Shown here one piece after another: positions 41,491 through 50,648 of a DNA stretch of 64,000 nucleotides; position 1 is the first letter of the stretch, and every line of letters begins with the position of its first letter. Origin of the DNA: Pseudomonas arsenicoxydans. GTDB lineage: Bacteria > Pseudomonadota > Gammaproteobacteria > Pseudomonadales > Pseudomonadaceae. The notes under the pieces are model-generated. The model was given only the letters and a program-made list of their open reading frames with translations. It had not been told where the DNA came from and ran no database searches. Both the position numbers and the translations under genes were made by a program. The stretch is from positions 1,676,001-1,740,000 of the forward strand of contig NZ_LT629705.1 in assembly GCF_900103875.1 (NCBI RefSeq), read 5' to 3'.

Positions 41491-42639
41491 ATGAGTCTTT
41501 CCTCTTTCAAAATCGCTCACAAACTGATCACCGGCGCTGGCGCCATCGAGCAACTGGCCGCTGAACTCAACCGCCTGGACATCGACAACCCGCTGATCGT
41601 CACCGACGCCGCCCTGGTCAAATCCGGTACGGTCGAGCTGGCGCTGGCGCAACTGGGCGATCGAACCTACGAAATCTTCGATCGTGTGTTGCCGGACCCG
41701 GAAATCGCCATCGTCGAAGACTGCATGCGGGTTTACCGCGAAGGCGGGCACGACGGGCTGATTGGCCTGGGCGGCGGCAGCGCTATCGACATTGCCAAAA
41801 GTGTCGCGGCCTACGCCGGTTACCACGGCGCGCTGGAGGATTTGTTCGGCGTCGATCAGGTGCCGCGCAAAGGCCCACCGCTGATCGCCATCCCGACCAC
41901 GGCCGGTACCGGATCGGAAGTGACCAACGTTGCCATCCTCTCCGACAAGGTCGCGCAGCTGAAAAAAGGCATCGTCAGCGACTATCTATTACCGGATGTC
42001 GCGCTGGTCAGTCCGCAAATGACCCTGACTTGCCCGCGCAGTGTCACCGCCGCCAGTGGCGTCGATGCGCTGGTGCATGCCATCGAATCGTACCTGTCAC
42101 TCAACGCTTCGCCGATTACCGACGCGCTGGCCATCGGCGCCATCAAGCTGATCGCCAAGGCGCTGCCCAAGGCGTACGCCAACCCGTCCAACCTGCAAGC
42201 CCGCGAAGACATGGCCACCGCCAGCCTGATGGCCGGCATGGCGTTCGGCAATGCCGGTGTTGGCGCGGTGCATGCGTTGGCGTATCCGCTGGGCGGGCGG
42301 TTCAACATCGCCCACGGCGTGAGCAATGCCTTGCTCCTGCCGTACGTCATGACCTGGAACAAGATGGCCTGCGTCGAGCGCATGCAGGATATTGCCGAGG
42401 CCATGGGTGTGAAGACCGCTCATCTGAGCGCCACTGACGCGGCCGACAAAGCCGTGGAGGCGATGACCGAACTGTGCGCCGCAGTGGAAATCCCGCCGGG
42501 CCTTCGCAGCTTCGGCGTTCCCGAGGATGCAATCCCGGCGATGGCCGTGGAAGCCGCGGGGATTGAGCGCTTGATGCGCAACAATCCACGCAAATTAAGC
42601 GCGATTGATATCGAGAAGATCTACCGCGCGGCCTACTAG
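41491..42639 (+). CDS. Iron-containing alcohol dehydrogenase
   Basis: 382 residues, group III Fe-ADH. The NAD-binding region has [15 protein letters not shown] and [16 protein letters not shown]; iron ligands are suggested by [16 protein letters not shown] and by [14 protein letters not shown] with neighbouring His. The substrate cannot be read from sequence. Downstream of agt genes it might reduce semialdehydes formed from 4-aminobutyrate or 5-aminovalerate, but Fe-ADHs are broad and this is conjecture. The arrangement is AGAGG before ATG 41491; rpe follows after about 90 nt. Confidence 0.9.
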
Positions 42640-42731
42640 GGCCTGGCCCAATCATCGCGGTCACGGTGCGCGGGCCAAAGCATGAGGTATACAATGCGCG
42701 CCATCGTGATTCTGTTCAAAAAAGGTGCGTC

Positions 42732-43406
42732 ATGCAGCCCTTCGTCATTGCTCCATCGATCCTCTCCGCCGACTTCGCCCGCCTGGGTGAAGAAGTGGAC
42801 AACGTCCTGGCCGCTGGCGCCGACTTCGTGCACTTCGATGTCATGGACAACCACTACGTGCCGAACCTGACCATCGGCCCGATGGTTTGCGCTGCGCTGC
42901 GCAAGTACGGCGTGACCGCGCCCATCGATGCACACTTGATGGTCAGCCCTGTGGACCGCATCGTCGGCGACTTCATCGAAGCCGGCGCGACCTACATCAC
43001 CTTTCACCCGGAAGCCACGCAGCACGTCGACCGTTCCCTGCAGTTGATCCGCGAAGGCGGTTGCAAGTCGGGCCTGGTATTCAACCCGGCGACGCCGCTG
43101 GACGTGCTCAAGTACGTGATGGACAAGGTCGACATGATCTTGCTGATGAGCGTCAACCCGGGCTTCGGCGGGCAGAAGTTCATTCCCGGCACCCTCGACA
43201 AGCTGCGTGAAGCACGCGCGCTGATCGATGCGTCCGGCCGTGATATTCGCCTGGAAATCGACGGCGGCGTCAACGTGAACAACATTCGTGAAATCGCAGC
43301 GGCGGGCGCGGACACCTTCGTCGCCGGCTCGGCGATCTTCAATGCACCGAATTACCAAGAGGTGATTGAAAAGATGCGTTCCGAACTGGCGTTGGCTCGT
43401 CCATGA
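42732..43406 (+). CDS. rpe: Ribulose-phosphate 3-epimerase
   Basis: 224 residues from ATG 42732 (frame open to 42666; AGGTG lies upstream of the chosen ATG and the family starts at [16 protein letters not shown]). Interconverts ribulose-5-P and xylulose-5-P. Motifs: [37 protein letters not shown] and [10 protein letters not shown]. Stop overlaps gph start. Confidence 0.97.
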
Positions 43407-44221
43407 GTGGCTTTGAGCAGCTGTTCCCGGGGCGTCTGCCGCGACTGGTGATGTTCGATCTGGATGGCACGCTGATCGATTCGGTCCCCGACCTCGCGGC
43501 GGCTGTGGATAACATGTTGCTCAAACTGGGGCGTGAGCCGGCCGGCATCGAATCGGTGCGTGAGTGGGTCGGCAACGGCGCGCCGGTGCTGGTTCGCCGT
43601 GCGCTGGCCGGTGGAATCGACCATTCGACCGTCGATGACGGTGAGGCCGAGGGCGCGCTGGAGATTTTCATGGAAGCCTACAGCCAGAGCCATGATCTGA
43701 CCGTGGTGTACCCCGGCGTGCGCGACACCCTGAAGTGGCTGAACAAGCAGGGCGTGGAAATGGCGCTGATCACCAACAAGCCGGAGCGTTTCGTCGCGCC
43801 GCTGCTGGATCAGATGAAAATCGGCCGCTACTTCAAATGGATCATCGGCGGCGATACCTTGCCGCAGAAGAAACCCGACCCGGCTGCGCTGTTCTTTGTG
43901 ATGAAAATGGCCAACATCCCGGCCTCGCAATCATTGTTTGTCGGCGACTCGCGCAGCGACGTGCAGGCGGCGAAAGCAGCGGGGGTCAAGTGCGTGGCCC
44001 TCAGTTATGGCTACAACCATGGCCGGCCGATTGCCGAAGAATCGCCAGCGCTGGTGATCGACGATCTGCGCAAACTAATTCCCGGTTGCCTGGATCCAGC
44101 CGCTGAGATAACGTTGCCCGACGTTGCTCAATCCCCTTCTGGAAACGCCATCGTGGTGGTCACTCGCAAACTCTGGATGAAAGTCATGAAGGCCCTGGCC
44201 CGCTGGCGTTGGCGCGCCTGA
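43403..44221 (+). CDS. gph: Phosphoglycolate phosphatase with C-terminal trp-leader-like extension
   Basis: 272 residues. HAD family: [34 protein letters not shown] and [17 protein letters not shown]. It removes phosphate from 2-phosphoglycolate. E. coli Gph is 252 residues; this one carries a C-terminal tail ending [13 protein letters not shown]. The last 24 nt are identical to the end of the small leader ORF before trpG (47976-47999). In-frame ATG codons at 44177 and 44186 could also start a separate 14- or 11-codon leader peptide. The tail thus doubles as, or is fused to, the trpE leader. trpE begins 71 nt after the stop. Confidence 0.92.
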
Positions 44222-44292
44222 CTCGATTCTGGCCGGCTCGCCGGCGCGTTTGCATACCTGACTGTTAGCACCTCAAGCCACGAGGCTACCCC
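44177..44292 (+). promoter_or_regulatory. trpE leader/attenuator region overlapping the gph 3' end
   Basis: In frame with gph, ATG 44177 would give a 14-residue peptide [14 protein letters not shown] with two Trp codons just before the stop. Downstream is a G/C hairpin GCCGG-CTCG-CCGGC (about 44233-44246), and an alternative pairing of CGCGCC near the leader stop with GGCGCG after that hairpin. No strong T run is present, so the exact terminator is unresolved. Attenuation of trpE has been reported in pseudomonads. Confidence 0.6.
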
Positions 44293-45774
44293 ATGATCCG
44301 CGAAGAATTCCTGCGTTTGGCCGCTGCCGGCTATAACCGTATCCCGATGGCCTGCGAAACCCTGGCCGACTTCGACACGCCACTGTCGATCTACCTGAAA
44401 CTGGCCGACGAGCCCAACTCTTACTTGCTGGAATCGGTACAGGGCGGGGAGAAGTGGGGCCGTTATTCGATCATCGGCCTGCCATGCCGCTCCGTGTTGC
44501 GGGTTCACGATCATCACGTGAGCGTGACCCACGATGGCGTCGAGATCGAAAGCCATGATGTCGAAGACCCACTGGCATTCGTCGAAACATTCAAGGCCCG
44601 CTATAACGTGCCGACCATTCCGGGCCTGCCACGCTTCAACGGCGGGTTGGTGGGTTACTTCGGTTATGACTGCGTGCGTTATGTGGAGAAGCGTCTTGGC
44701 AAATGCCCGAACCCCGATCCACTGGGCGTGCCGGACATTCTGCTGATGGTGTCCGACGCGGTGGTGGTGTTCGACAACCTCGCCGGCAAGATGCACGCCA
44801 TCGTTCTGGCCGACCCGTCGCAGGCCGAGGCTTTCGAGCAAGGTCAGGCGCGTCTGGAAGCGCTGCTGGAAAAACTCCGTCAACCTATCACGCCGCGCCG
44901 TGGCCTGGATTTCAGCAAGCAACAATCGGCTGATCCGGTGTTTCGCTCCAGCTTCACCCAGGACGATTACGAAAAAGCCGTCGACACCATCAAGGAATAC
45001 ATCCTGGCCGGTGACTGCATGCAGGTCGTCCCGTCCCAGCGCATGTCGATCGACTTCAAGGCTGCGCCGATTGATCTGTACCGGGCGCTGCGTTGCTTCA
45101 ACCCGACCCCGTATATGTACTTCTTCAACTTCGGCGACTTCCATGTCGTCGGCAGTTCGCCGGAAGTGCTGGTGCGGGTCGAAGACAACTTGATTACCGT
45201 ACGCCCGATTGCCGGCACCCGCCCACGCGGGGCCAACGAAGAGGCCGACCTGGCGCTGGAAAAAGACCTGCTGTCGGACGACAAGGAAATCGCCGAGCAC
45301 TTGATGCTGATCGACCTGGGTCGTAACGATACCGGTCGGGTGTCGGAAATCGGGTCGGTGAAACTTACCGAAAAGATGGTCATCGAGCGTTATTCCAACG
45401 TGATGCACATCGTGTCCAATGTCACCGGGCAATTGAAGGCCGGGCTGACGGCGATGGACGCACTGCGGGCCATTCTGCCGGCGGGCACTTTGTCGGGCGC
45501 ACCGAAGATTCGCGCGATGGAAATCATCGACGAACTGGAACCGGTCAAGCGCGGCGTCTACGGCGGTGCGGTTGGTTATTTCGCGTGGAACGGCAACATG
45601 GACACTGCGATTGCGATTCGTACCGCGGTGATCAAGGACGGCGAACTGCACGTTCAGGCCGGTGGCGGCATCGTCGCCGACTCGGTGCCGGCGCTGGAGT
45701 GGGAAGAAACCTTGAACAAGCGCCGCGCGATGTTCCGCGCTGTTGCCTTGGCCGAACAGACTCCGGACGCTTGA
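44293..45774 (+). CDS. trpE: Anthranilate synthase component I
   Basis: 493 residues. It converts chorismate to anthranilate with the TrpG glutaminase. N-terminal Trp-binding region includes [19 protein letters not shown] (LLES-type feedback-site motif). Catalytic region has [42 protein letters not shown] and [16 protein letters not shown]. Separated from trpG by estA. Confidence 0.97.
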
Positions 45775-45795
45775 GCCGCAGACTTCATCAGCAAT

Positions 45796-45833
45796 AAAAA
45801 ACGCGGCGCCTGTGAGGGCGCCGCGTTTTTTTG
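45796..45833. terminator. Bidirectional terminator between trpE and estA
   Basis: Stem ACGCGGCGCC/GGCGCCGCGT (10 bp) with a 6-nt loop, A tract before and seven T after, between the convergent trpE and estA. Confidence 0.92.
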
Positions 45834-45844
45834 TTGCCTGCGAT

Positions 45845-47755
45845 CTAGAAGTCCAACGCAACTCCGACATTAATGCCTTGCTGGGTGAAGTCATCATCCT
45901 TGCGAATGTCGTAGCTGGCGCGCAATGCCAGGTCCTTGGTGAGGTTATGGCTCACGCCCAGGTTCAAGCGGTTCAGGTTGGACTGCGGGGTGTAGCCGGC
46001 CAGGGTGTAGTGGTTGTTTGGCAGGCTGTTGAGGTTCATGGTTACGTTCTGGGTGTCGTCGTTGTACTCGCGCTCGTGGGCCAGTTCGCCAAACACTTGG
46101 GTTTGCGTGGTGATCTGGTATTTGCCCTGGATCCCGAGGCCAAGACGACGGGAAATGCGTGACTGGTCGTCATATGTCAGCGCGGTGGAGTCGGCGCCGT
46201 TTTCCGAGTAACCGTTCACTTCAACTTTCGCGAAGTCCGCGCTCACGAATGGCGACAAGTGCCATGGGCTGCTCGCTTCTGGCGCGATGTCATAGCCCAG
46301 GCGGCCGCTGATGGCGACCAGGTAACCGTCGGTGTCGCCTTTCTCCCCGCGTTCGTTGACCCCCAACTGGAATTTGCGTTTGAGACTGTCGTAGTCCAGA
46401 TGCCCTGCCGTCAGCGCCGCGTCACCCCAAATGCGATTCTGTTGGTATTGAGCGAAAGCGGTGCCCATGTAGGTGTTGAGTTTGTAATCCGAATCGTTAT
46501 CGCCCGCTTCGAGCTTTTGGTTATAGAAGCCCGCCGCCAAGCCAACGCGCCATGCGTCATTGAGCCGATAGCTGCCACCGATGTTCAAATTGGCGCCATT
46601 GCCGTCAGCACTCGCACCACTGCGCTGGCTGTCGAAATCCTGGTGTTGGCCGCCGGCGGCGACAATCGCCCGCCATTGACCCACGCCTTGCCAGTTTTCC
46701 CAATCGGCCAGCCACTGGTTGCGCAACTCATCCTGATGAGAACGCAAAGTCCCTTGGGCCATTTGTGGCAAAAGGGATGCTTCCCAAGGTGCGGACAGCA
46801 GCGAGTAAGCGTAATCGGCAATCAGGCGTTGCCCGGCTTCGGTCGGGTGCACCGAGTCGTTGTAGATCAGTTTGGTCGGATCCGGAGTGGCACTGTTGAT
46901 GCCGTAGCGGGCGTTTTCGGTGCAACTGTTGCCGCTGAAGCAGGTGGCGCTCAGGTTCTGGTCGGTGGCCAGGCCGAACTGGCCAGGGTTGGCAAACGTC
47001 TCTTTGAGCAGTACCGGAATGTTCAGCGGGATGATGTTGGCGTTAATGCCCTGCAGTTGGCTGACCAGTTCAGTATTGAACTGGGAGCTGAGCTGGGACG
47101 TGAAGGCTTGCAAGGGTGTGCCGTTGAAAGCCGGGGTAAAACCAATGTCCGGCAGCAACCAGACCATGATGTAGCGCGCCCCGGCCTGTTGCAGGGTCTG
47201 CACGCTGCTGGCCAGGCGATCGGCGGCGGCGCTGGCCTGGGGCAGGCTGGTTACGCGGCCCTGCAGGAAGTCATTGCCGCCTCCCGAGAGGTAATACAGC
47301 GCATTCGGGTCGGCGCGGAAGTTGTTCGACGGCAGATAACCCGCACGGGTGCGTTCGCCGGTGGCGGAAGTGCTGGTGATCGAGTCGAGAATCTGGTCGG
47401 TGCGATAACCGCCGACGGCCCAGTTGTTGCCATCGGGCAGGCCTTCGCCGGCGCGCACCGCCGAGGACGATGACGCCGTCTGGTCCGGCGAGAACCCCAG
47501 TTTCCCCCCAAGGACCTGCGTGGCGTTGAGCGAGCGGACTTCGCCGCTGCCATCCAGATAAACCGGCCCCGTACGGTTGGTAAAGCGCTCCGTCGCCCCG
47601 GCAGGCCCGCCGGTATCGGCAAACGTGCCGGCGTCATTGAGGCTGTCGCCGAAGACGATGAAATTGGTGTACGGATTGGGTGAGGCGTTCGCCTGGGCGC
47701 AGGCCATCGCGAGCAGGCATCCTGCGAGAGGTACAAACAACGTCTGTTTGATCAT
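45845..47755 (-). CDS. estA: Autotransporter esterase EstA (GDSL lipase)
   Basis: 636 residues from ATG 47755 (an upstream in-frame TTG at 47761 is less likely). Signal peptide [23 protein letters not shown] esterase passenger: [15 protein letters not shown] with the nucleophile Ser, GGGNDFLQG, and the catalytic Asp/His in [12 protein letters not shown]. The autotransporter barrel occupies about the last 280 residues and ends GVALDF with terminal Phe. EstA is an outer-membrane-anchored esterase linked in P. aeruginosa to rhamnolipid production and motility. There it lies elsewhere; here it separates trpE from trpGDC. Confidence 0.93.
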
Positions 47756-47873
47756 GAGCAAGTCCGTTTATTTTATTGTTGTAGTAAACGAAACGACAGT
47801 ACCAAAAACTTCCGGCGTTTTGCCATCTGTCGCGAACCCTTCGATTGTTTCGCGAGCTGTCACCCCCGCCATA

Positions 47874-47902
47874 TTGCACGCTCTGCCCAGCTAAGTTACT
47901 GT
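47874..47902 (+). promoter_or_regulatory. Possible promoter for the trpG leader
   Basis: TTGCAC (47874-47879) and TACTGT (47897-47902) are 17 nt apart, just before the leader reading frame at 47913. A pattern match only. Confidence 0.35.
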
Positions 47903-47912
47903 GCCGAGACGT

Positions 47913-47999
47913 ATGAATGAGACCTTCCCCGTGTTGATCATCAGCAAACTCCTGGATCAAGTCATCAAGGCACATGCCCGCTGGCGTTGGCGCGCCTGA
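47913..47999 (+). CDS. trpL: trpGDC leader peptide (TrpL-like)
   Basis: 28 codons from ATG 47913, ending SKLLDQVIKAHARWRWRA with two Trp codons directly before the TGA; an internal GTG at 47931 preceded by GAGA is an alternative start (22 codons). The last 24 nt are identical to those ending gph (44198-44221), and the preceding residues align (KL..., KA.A). Two Trp codons before a stop in the leader are the hallmark of ribosome-mediated attenuation. A G/C hairpin CCGGC-CTG-GCCGG (about 48010-48022) follows. Too short for routine annotation. Confidence 0.7.
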   Translation: MNETFPVLIISKLLDQVIKAHARWRWRA

Positions 48000-48162
48000 A
48001 TCTTTTCTGCCGGCCTGGCCGGACCTGTACCGCTTTGCCTTCTTCACCCGTTAGACATACCGCTTTGCTGGCGCATCCTGCGACAGACAAAGTGCAGGAC
48101 GCTGCGGGTAATCGTTCGAAGGCTGTCTTAAAAGTCAGTGAATTCAAGAGGTTCTGAACGCC
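48000..48162 (+). promoter_or_regulatory. trpGDC attenuator region
   Basis: Between the leader stop and trpG. It contains the GC hairpin after the leader and a second imperfect stem GCATCCTGC/GCAGGACGC (about 48074-48102). I could not identify a terminator with a clear T run. Confidence 0.4.
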
Positions 48163-48756
48163 ATGTTGCTGATGATCGATAACTACGACTCTTTTACCTA
48201 CAACGTTGTGCAGTACCTTGGTGAGCTCGGCTCCCAAGTCAAAGTTGTGCGCAACGATGAACTCACCATTGCCGAAATCGAAGCCCTCAACCCTGAGCGC
48301 ATCGTCGTATCCCCCGGTCCTTGCACCCCGACCGAAGCCGGCATCTCAATCGAAGCGATCAAGCATTTCGCCGGCAAGCTGCCGATTCTGGGCGTCTGCC
48401 TCGGCCATCAATCCATTGGCCAGGCGTTTGGCGGTGATGTGGTCCGCGCCCGTCAAGTCATGCACGGTAAGACTAGCCCGGTATTCCATGAGGACAAGGG
48501 CGTATTCGAAGGCCTGAATCGTCCGCTGACGGTAACGCGCTATCACTCGCTGATCGTCAAGCGTGAAACCTTGCCCGATTGCCTGGAGCTGACCGCTTGG
48601 ACCCAGCTCGAAGACGGCTCGATCGACGAGATCATGGGGCTGCGCCACAAGACATTGAACATCGAGGGTGTGCAGTTCCACCCTGAGTCTATCCTCACTG
48701 AACAGGGCCACGAGCTGTTCGCCAACTTCCTCAAACAAACCGGCGGCACGCGCTAA
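48163..48756 (+). CDS. trpG: Anthranilate synthase component II (glutamine amidotransferase)
   Basis: 197 residues. Class I GATase: [20 protein letters not shown], the oxyanion region [12 protein letters not shown], nucleophile Cys in [15 protein letters not shown], and the catalytic His/Glu in [11 protein letters not shown]. Supplies ammonia to TrpE, and possibly to PabB as well, as in other bacteria with a shared subunit. Followed by trpD after 9 nt. Confidence 0.96.
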
Positions 48757-48765
48757 GGACTTTCC

Positions 48766-49815
48766 ATGAATATCAAGACAGCCCTGAGCCGTATCGTCGA
48801 TCACCTCGACCTCAGCACCGATGAGATGCGCGATGTGATGCGCGAAATCATGACCGGGCAATGCACGGATGCGCAGATCGGCGCGTTCATGATGGCCATG
48901 CGCATGAAGAGCGAGAGCATCGACGAAATCGTCGGCGCCGTGTCGGTCATGCGCGAACTGGCAGACAAGGTCGAACTCAAGACCCTCGACGGTGTAGTCG
49001 ATGTCGTCGGCACCGGCGGCGATGGTGCGAACATCTTCAACGTGTCGACGGCTTCCTCTTTCGTGGTGGCGGCTGCCGGTTGCACCGTGGCCAAGCACGG
49101 TAACCGTGCTGTATCAGGCAAAAGCGGTAGCGCTGACTTGCTGGAAGCGGCCGGTATCTACCTCAACTTGAGCCCGGTCCAGGTGGCGCGCTGCATCGAC
49201 AACGTCGGCATTGGCTTCATGTTCGCCCAGACCCATCACAGTGCCATGAAGCACGCTGCCGGTCCGCGCAAGGATCTTGGCCTGCGTACCCTGTTCAACA
49301 TGCTCGGCCCGCTTACGAATCCGGCCGGTGTGAAACATCAGGTGGTGGGCGTGTTCAGCCAGGCGCTGTGCCGGCCATTGGCCGAAGTCTTGCAGCGCTT
49401 GGGCAGCAAGCACGTGCTGGTGGTGCACTCGAAGGATGGCCTGGACGAGTTCAGTCTGGCGGCACCGACGTATGTGGCAGAACTGAAGAATGACCAGATC
49501 ACCGAATATTGGGTCGAGCCTGAAGACCTGGGCATGAAGAGCCAGAGCTTGCACGGTCTGGCGGTGGAAAGCCCGGCGGCCTCTCTTGAGCTGATCCGCG
49601 ATGCCCTGGGCAAACGCAAGACCGAATTTGGCCAGAAAGCTGCCGAGATGATCGTGCTCAATGCCGGTGCCGCACTGTATGCCGCCGACCTGGCGACCAG
49701 TTTGAAAGAAGGCGTTGCCCTGGCGCACGATGCGCTGCACACAGGCCTCGCCCGAGAAAAACTCGAGGAATTGGGTGCATTTACCGCGGTATTCAAAGTG
49801 GAGAATGAGGGATGA
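48766..49815 (+). CDS. trpD: Anthranilate phosphoribosyltransferase
   Basis: 349 residues. Joins anthranilate to PRPP. Motifs: [40 protein letters not shown] and [20 protein letters not shown]. Stop overlaps trpC start by 4 nt. Confidence 0.97.
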
Positions 49816-50648
49816 GTGTACCGACGGTTCTGGAAAACATTCTGGCCCGCAAGGTCCAGGAAGTTGCCGAGCGCAGCGCCCGTGTGAGTCTGGCGGAGCT
49901 GGAAAGCCTGGCCAAGGCGGCCGATGCACCCCGTGGTTTTGCCAAGGCATTGATTGCCCAGGCCAAGCTGAAACATCCGGCAGTCATTGCCGAGATCAAA
50001 AAAGCATCACCGAGCAAAGGCGTGATTCGCGCGAATTTCGATCCCGCCAGCATTGCTAAAAGTTACGAAAAGGGCGGCGCGACCTGCCTGTCAGTGCTCA
50101 CCGATATCGATTTTTTCCAGGGCGCCGATGCTTATCTGCAACAGGCCCGGGCGGCGTGCAAACTGCCAGTGATCCGCAAGGACTTCATGATCGATCCGTA
50201 CCAGATCGTCGAGGCCCGTGCGCTGGGCGCTGACTGCGTGCTGTTGATCGTCTCTGCACTGGACGACGTGAAGATGGCAGAGCTGGCGGCCGTGGCCAAA
50301 AGCGTCGGCCTCGATGTGCTGGTGGAAGTGCACGACGGCGACGAGCTGGAGCGGGCCTTGAAAACCCTCAACACGCCGCTGGTCGGCGTGAACAACCGTA
50401 ACCTGCACACTTTCGAGGTCAATCTGGAAACCACCCTCGATCTGTTGCCGCGCATCCCTCGTGATCGTCTGGTGATTACCGAAAGTGGCATTTTCAACCG
50501 GGCCGATGTCGAGCTGATGGAAATCAGCGACGTGTATGCGTTCCTGGTCGGCGAGGCGTTCATGCGTGCCGAAAGCCCGGGTACCGAGTTGCAGCGCCTG
50601 TTCTTTCCTGAGCGTGGTACTGCGGTGAGTGGTTCTACGCTCGACTGA
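49812..50648 (+). CDS. trpC: Indole-3-glycerol-phosphate synthase
   Basis: 278 residues, monofunctional (no TrpF fusion). Barrel motifs: [17 protein letters not shown] with catalytic Lys, [47 protein letters not shown] and [13 protein letters not shown]. Last gene of trpGDC. Confidence 0.97.

Follow-up and report, generated by a model that had tools for sequence, protein, structure and literature searches.

The trp leader of Escherichia coli is a short open reading frame (ORF) with tandem Trp codons that is located before trpE. For trpL/peTrpL of Sinorhizobium meliloti, we know of no fusion to an upstream gene. PMC7298713 describes it as the leader peptide in a trp gene's transcription attenuator. 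In pseudomonads, the title of Olekhnovich and Gussin (2001) states attenuation of trpE and trpGDC in Pseudomonas putida, and for azithromycin-treated biofilms of P. aeruginosa, PMC8297930 describes premature 3′ ends ahead of trpGDC, near a GTG upstream ORF, the trpGDC signal being under the cut-off in the other conditions. In the main text of PMC8297930, gph is unmentioned and trpE occurs only in a cited title. A survey of titles and abstract openings returned no description of a leader nested in gph.

We analyzed a stretch of 64,000 nucleotides of the P. arsenicoxydans genome (NZ_LT629705.1, positions 1,676,001–1,740,000, forward strand; here called the window), in which a trp leader lies in frame inside gph, the phosphoglycolate phosphatase gene that precedes trpE. 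The same two operons are named in the P. putida title, and the P. aeruginosa trpGDC ORF of PMC8297930 probably corresponds to this leader at its paralogous position. As in E. coli, a short leader ORF with tandem Trp codons is found ahead of trpE, and the likeness to trpL/peTrpL as described in PMC7298713 would lie in a leader peptide that belongs to the transcription attenuator of a trp gene. Unlike the E. coli leader, the one described here lies inside the enzyme gene upstream of trpE, begins with GTG, is followed 8–11 nt past its stop by a hairpin without a U-run, and has no covariance-model match to the Rfam trp leader of enterobacterial type (the sole match at E up to 1 in positions 42500–50000 was a weak one to P34 elsewhere, E 0.87). 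Attenuation of these operons has already been reported; the nesting in gph, the retention of the reading frame and a long-range pairing between two RNA arms, A and E, are added here.

A trp leader at the 3′ end of gph

The region between gph and trpE in the window contains the following elements:
43403–44221, + strand: gph, phosphoglycolate phosphatase, 272 residues (HAD core to residue 225, the remainder being linker and trp leader)
44081–44152, + strand: linker, gph codons 227–250, corresponding to the translated promoter-like region and 5′UTR of the trp leader
44086–44091, + strand: TTGCCT, −35-like element of a putative trpE promoter inside gph, assigned by conservation and not called by the consensus scan
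44109–44114, + strand: −10-like TAACGT, 17 nt past the −35-like element, within the codons ATA ACG TTG
44141–44145, + strand: Shine-Dalgarno (SD)-like GGAAA ahead of the leader GTG (GAGA in most relatives)
44153–44221, + strand: trpE leader ORF, in frame inside gph, 22 codons, GTG start (first residue presumably Met)
44204–44212, + strand: two terminal Trp codons, UGG-CGU-UGG
44282–44285, + strand: Shine-Dalgarno sequence of trpE, GAGG, assigned by eye
44293–45774, + strand: trpE, anthranilate synthase component I

The original prediction, made from the letters of the window, was that gph ends with Trp codons directly before its stop and that trpE follows closely, and this is indeed the arrangement (the gap from the gph stop to the trpE ATG at 44293 is 71 nt). 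The view that the tail of Gph is a trp leader and not part of the catalytic domain is also borne out. Pfam and TIGR01449 matches stop at or before residue 225, and the alignment with the best solved relative, 2hsz, reaches the same residue, so that the HAD domain excludes residues after ∼226. The NCBIfam equivalog NF009698 (PRK13223) matches Gph over its full length (556.8 bits; the cut-off is 466). The peptide of a second leader, located before trpG, matches the last 20 positions of NF009698 (18.6 bits, E 8e-4, far below the cut-off), which indicates that this 272-residue Gph model includes the trp leader.

The second leader is free-standing and paralogous to the first:
47874–47902, + strand: promoter-like TTGCAC-17-TACTGT of the trpG leader
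47931–47999, + strand: trpG leader with GTG start, encoding VLIISKLLDQVIKAHARWRWRA up to the stop
48010–48022, + strand: hairpin CCGG-CCUGG-CCGG past the trpG leader stop, followed by ...CGCUUUGCC, assigned by eye
48163–48756, + strand: trpG

The two leaders can be aligned over 69 nt from GTG to stop with no gaps and 54/69 identities, a value that was matched in 0/20000 codon shuffles. The last 24 nt of gph (44198–44221) had been noted as identical to the end of the trpG leader (47976–47999); the match is exact, and this 24-mer has two copies on the + strand of the window (44198 and 47976) and none on the − strand. A TTGCNN-17-TANNGT pair is found upstream of both leaders (at 44086 and 47874), and the end of the trpG leader is separated from trpG by 163 nt. 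Among 30 trpG loci (L143–L172), a leader with RWRW or HWRW precedes trpG in ten and, by the rule used, is missing from 20 (one of these, L168, sits at a contig edge). In 14 of the 20 leaderless loci trpE is closely followed by trpG, and the second leader may therefore stem from the separation of trpE and trpG; L158, L162, L163 and L169 have the two genes apart and are nevertheless leaderless. In the window, a large ORF of 638 residues, a putative GDSL esterase autotransporter, lies between trpE and trpG on the − strand (45845–47761), and a terminator-like hairpin with a T-run is present at about 45800–45836, the stretch of the weak P34 match. The other three of the five GCNCGNTGGCGNTGGCG matches in the window's own genome lie at places where no gene was identified. 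Two of them (L273 and L275) were rejected as leaders because they lack an in-frame stop within 10 codons after the Trp codons, and the third (L274) because, despite an in-frame stop, another frame reads as protein.

Distribution of the fused and free-standing leader

The search for Gph covered 149 genomes from the genus of the window and 59 from the family (five in both); 142 loci were taken from them and 141 parsed. One locus (L052) was left out of all counts as a second copy in a contaminated genome; this genome (G051, 8.7 Mb, 9% contaminated) has two gph matches, L051 and L052, ∼1.5 kb apart. A leader was defined strictly as R-W-x-W followed by a stop. By this rule, a Trp-rich short ORF precedes trpE in 128 of the 141 parsed loci, being fused in frame to gph in 75 and free-standing in 53. 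The 13 remaining loci comprise six without trpE in the piece, four with variant Trp-rich ORFs and three (L115, L121 and L141) in which trpE is present and leaderless. Fused loci belong to genera g1 (66 fused, 23 not), g2, g9 and g12, the free-standing leader is the sole form in 13 of the 19 sampled Pseudomonadaceae genera, and genera g3 and g7 have no leader by the strict rule. The module common to the relatives consists of TTGNNN-17-TANNNT, an SD-like GAGA, GTG and ∼22 codons ending in RWRW, followed by a hairpin. The stretch from the gph stop to the promoter of the leader contains a run of GCTTGCG units in L044 and ∼180 extra nt in L038.

In a second set, the 80 top-ranking loci among at least 522 matches in genome contigs, 78 end in RWRWRA, one in RWRWRT and one (L247) is unfused, and trpE is downstream in all 80; four of these loci are identical in sequence to loci of the first set. 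One check that had been proposed is whether the tail is found only where trpE follows. trpE adjoins the gene in all 154 tail-bearing loci that were read (149 distinct sequences; 75 from the first set and 79 among the 80 top-ranking of 522 or more matches), with no counter-example among them. Outside the family, 20 of the 23 matches in other families of the order were fetched. Their Gph proteins have 221–246 residues and no tail. trpE is in the piece in 12 of these 20 loci, and between gph and trpE eight of the 12 have a Trp-rich ORF (ending, for example, in ...RWWRWRTG, ...VKRWRW or ...VTRWRW) and four have none. The unfused state was taken as ancestral.

Start codon and promoter-like sequence of the nested leader

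The codon of V251 (44153) is GTG in 75/75 fused loci, compared with 58% GTG among the Val codons of the core, and all leaders (128/128) have a GTG in frame that is preceded by an SD-like motif, as judged with a loose motif list. The idea that an internal start produces a leader nested in the gene therefore stands with respect to nesting, and the start codons that were proposed for it, 44177 and 44186, do not. The ATG at 44177 is kept in 72/75 fused loci and lost in three; its equivalent occurs in 120/128 leaders, only two of which have an SD-like motif for it by the same loose list. Position 44186 reads ATC (Ile) in 70/75 fused loci, and the window's own ATG at this place does carry an SD-like motif. 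GTG 44153 is thus the likely start of the leader. The promoter-like sequence occupies codons 228–238 of the fused gph. Codon 229, in the −35-like element, is TGC in 75/75 fused loci, and codon 236 is ATA in 59/75, a triplet that accounts for 11 of 689 Ile codons in the core. A consensus scan called no promoter at the trpE leader, and the proposal of an internal trpE promoter is therefore drawn from conservation.

Fusion and un-fusion

To place the fusion in a phylogeny, a tree was computed by a quick search from the Gph core and the TrpE N-terminus for 120 of the 141 rows (21 rows of L001–L030 were left out). In this tree, all 54 fused rows are found within one clade of 63 (SH-aLRT 99). The fused/unfused label changes five times, compared with 39.6 times in shuffles, and the starred branches alone force two changes. 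The unfused loci inside the fused clade are L031, L053 and the pair L054/L055, in which the linker has shifted in length by numbers that are not multiples of three, and all of them have the leader with its GTG and SD intact after the break of the gph frame. Five further rows of genera g3 and g13 (L115, L138 and L140–L142) form long branches inside the fused clade; we consider their placement wrong, and they were left out of the frame counts. If they are rightly placed, there would be one more un-fusion, and the fused clade would have 54 fused among 63 rows. The sequences thus support a history in which an older free-standing trp leader became joined in frame to gph essentially once, and in which at least three lineages have since lost the joined frame and kept the leader. 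Since the leader outlived at least three such losses, it does not need the fusion.

Selection on the linker, the leader and the open frame

Substitution rates were compared over 393 pairs of fused loci with a core pS of 0.1–0.4. The core of gph has a dN/dS of 0.16 and a dS of 0.457, linker residues 230–250 have a dN/dS of 1.05 and a dS of 0.22, and the leader has a dN/dS of 0.36 and a dS of 0.124. The leader looks constrained at the nucleotide level, and the amino acids of the linker look free.

The gph frame is kept in 54/58 tips of the fused clade. In the frame of the leader, the 24 codons ahead of the GTG are open in 56/58 fused-clade tips, of which 54 are open by definition because they are classed as fused, compared with 19/49 unfused loci. 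The other two frames are open in 27/58 and 3/58 fused-clade tips, and in the unfused loci the three frames are open in 19, 18 and 17 of 49. When evolution was simulated without selection against stops, 21–25% of the 54 tips were closed on average, none of 80 replicates had all tips open, and the most open one reached 96%. None of the 58 tips appears to have been closed by a stop substitution alone, and the four broken tips carry indels. Of 13 inferred linker length changes, nine are multiples of three (P 0.009 at an expectation of one third), and one of the other four postdates a frame break. Because 54/58 tips are in frame with a linker dN/dS of about 1, it is the open frame of the linker, and not its amino acids, that seems to be kept. 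We interpret this pattern as selection for an open passage, as far as can be judged from few events and a sample partly conditioned on being in frame. With the passage open and the amino acids drifting, the ribosomes that arrive from gph may still matter.

RNA structure downstream of the Trp codons

The following elements are considered for the leader RNA:
44166–44171, + strand: arm A, GCAAAC, leader codons 5–7, complementary to arm E
44174–44176, + strand: first leader Trp codon, adjoining arm A, TGG in 75/75 fused loci
44232–44245, + strand: hairpin GCCGG-CUCG-CCGGC, 10 nt past the leader stop, without a U-run
44248–44253, + strand: arm E, GUUUGC, just past the hairpin, conserved and covarying with A

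The hairpin starts 8–11 nt past the leader stop in 25/25 representatives, which leaves no room for the classical 1:2/2:3/3:4 layout of E. coli. Over 72 leaders, its inner pairs are variously GC, CG, AU, UA and GU, but the arms were chosen to pair, so that an arm-swap test of the hairpin is circular. Folding of the region as a terminator had been suggested as a check and lends no support: a hairpin is present, the longest T-run behind it is 3 or less in 69/72 leaders of alignment A1 (72 of the 128 leaders, near copies removed), and the minimum free energies of single sequences are no better than those of shuffles (z 0.11 and 0.64). RNAalifold on A1, which misaligns the hairpin, recovered neither the hairpin nor the A:E pairing. 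With a hairpin this close to the stop and no U-run, the classical attenuator layout does not fit.

An A:E helix of at least five pairs can be formed in 71/72 leaders and one of at least six pairs in 62/72. Arms that have changed still pair, as in GCACAG/CTGTGC (L107), CACACAC/GTGTGTG (L092) and AAAAACA/TGTTTTT (L138); in L039 the arms GCAAGCG/CGCTTGC also pair, with the partner in an insert slightly downstream. In a first permutation test on 72 rows, the reversed-E control was likewise beyond all 5000 permutations, and the test was therefore redone on 25 rows hand-picked across lineages. In these rows, own arms scored 15.8 and swapped arms 13.57 (sd 0.43), with 0/20000 permutations reaching the own value. 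Of the three controls, the one with E reversed reached its own value in 794 of 20000 permutations, the one with a downstream segment in 1107 and the one with E reverse-complemented in just 131; because of this last control, part of the A:E signal is attributed to relatedness. The Trp codon next to arm A is missing in 7/128 leaders (five of genus g5, L132 and L139), and masking of A by a ribosome at this codon cannot be universal. The g5 leaders L117, L118, L120, L124 and L126, which end in RWRWT or RWRWP, keep arms A and E in L117, L120 and L124, doubtfully in L126, and offer a natural test of masking.

Proposed mechanism and alternatives

The reading that we favor, with a probability of about 0.7, is that a trp attenuator module is nested in gph and may be entered by ribosomes in two ways. 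Its parts that are supported by comparison of the loci are the module, its nesting, a nearly single origin, the un-fusions, the conservation of the start, the retention of the frame and the A:E covariation; the transcripts, the use of the GTG and the response to Trp are putative. In one clade of Pseudomonadaceae, gph would have lost its own stop, and its frame now extends via the promoter-like region and the leader to the stop of the leader. Because gph reads in frame through the leader, ribosomes could reach the Trp codons and stop in two ways. They may initiate at GTG 44153, a start that a short transcript from the putative internal promoter would also offer, or they may arrive from gph on any gph–trpE read-through transcript. 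By analogy with known trp leaders, the Trp codons adjoining the stop of a short leader before trpE suggest attenuation that is read by the ribosome. When Trp is plentiful, ribosomes would reach the stop, leaving arm A free to pair with arm E behind the hairpin; this pairing would complete the attenuating structure, and transcription of trpE would be attenuated. When Trp is scarce, a ribosome held at UGG 44174 would cover arm A, the structure would fail, and trpE would be expressed. Alternatively, A may be covered by a second ribosome that waits, at a distance of about 30 nt, behind one stalled at UGG 44204. A narrower version, in which the 24-codon junction is under selection to stay open for the sole purpose of bringing gph ribosomes in frame to the leader Trp codons and stop, with GCAAAC pairing over the ribosome to RNA behind the hairpin, seems doubtful to us.

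The probabilities that we attach to the explanations apply to each separately and do not sum to 1. In the simplest alternative, which shares the module with the favored reading, only ribosomes that initiate at GTG 44153 on a short transcript matter, and read-through followed neutrally from the loss of a stop. We consider this quite possible, if somewhat below even odds: unfused lineages, and those in which the frame broke secondarily, have an intact leader, and the linker has a dN/dS of about 1, but unfused loci and neutral simulations have the frame open less often, and linker length changes favor multiples of three (few events, in a sample partly conditioned on being in frame). Frame retention and the constant presence of trpE next to the tail in the loci read would also agree with one of the two options in the original prediction, namely that translation of gph is itself the sensor, sets attenuation of trpE and couples phosphoglycolate repair to Trp status, the tail existing for that. 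This proposal is unlikely, and translation of gph is not required: besides having a GTG, an SD-like motif and a promoter-like sequence of its own, the leader is free-standing in most genera and outlasts un-fusion; no link between Gph activity and Trp was seen at the sequence level. Selection of the tail for a function in the Gph protein itself (stability or oligomerization, for instance), with its likeness to a leader being secondary, is very improbable. NF009698 treats all 272 residues as one family and the leader residues are conserved, but conservation extends to the leader's synonymous sites (dS 0.124), free-standing forms of the same peptide precede trpE and trpG, and the linker residues look unconstrained.

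A further alternative concerns the output of the leader, which may act through translation or RNA stability (by A:E pairing and occlusion of the trpE Shine-Dalgarno sequence by CCUC 44271–44274) and not through termination of transcription. The absence of a U-run terminator from 69/72 aligned leaders speaks for it, as do the position of A:E past the hairpin, where the pairing would form late, and the CCUC/GAGG complementarity, seen by eye only. Against it stand the premature 3′ ends before trpGDC reported in PMC8297930 and the word attenuation in the title of Olekhnovich and Gussin (2001), and we hold it to be less likely than not.

Implications

The element is ordinary in kind, being a trp leader, unusual in place, being in frame inside an enzyme gene, and informative in its history. 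It shows a regulatory leader that was swallowed by an upstream gene and apparently still works. It is also a warning that NF009698, a curated protein family model, counts a regulatory peptide as enzyme. The natural series of free, fused and un-fused leaders in these bacteria offers a way to test whether ribosomes from an upstream gene can serve as amino-acid sensors. If the narrower version of the two-entrance reading is true, the C-terminal tail of an enzyme gene would be maintained for the passage of ribosomes and would not serve the protein.
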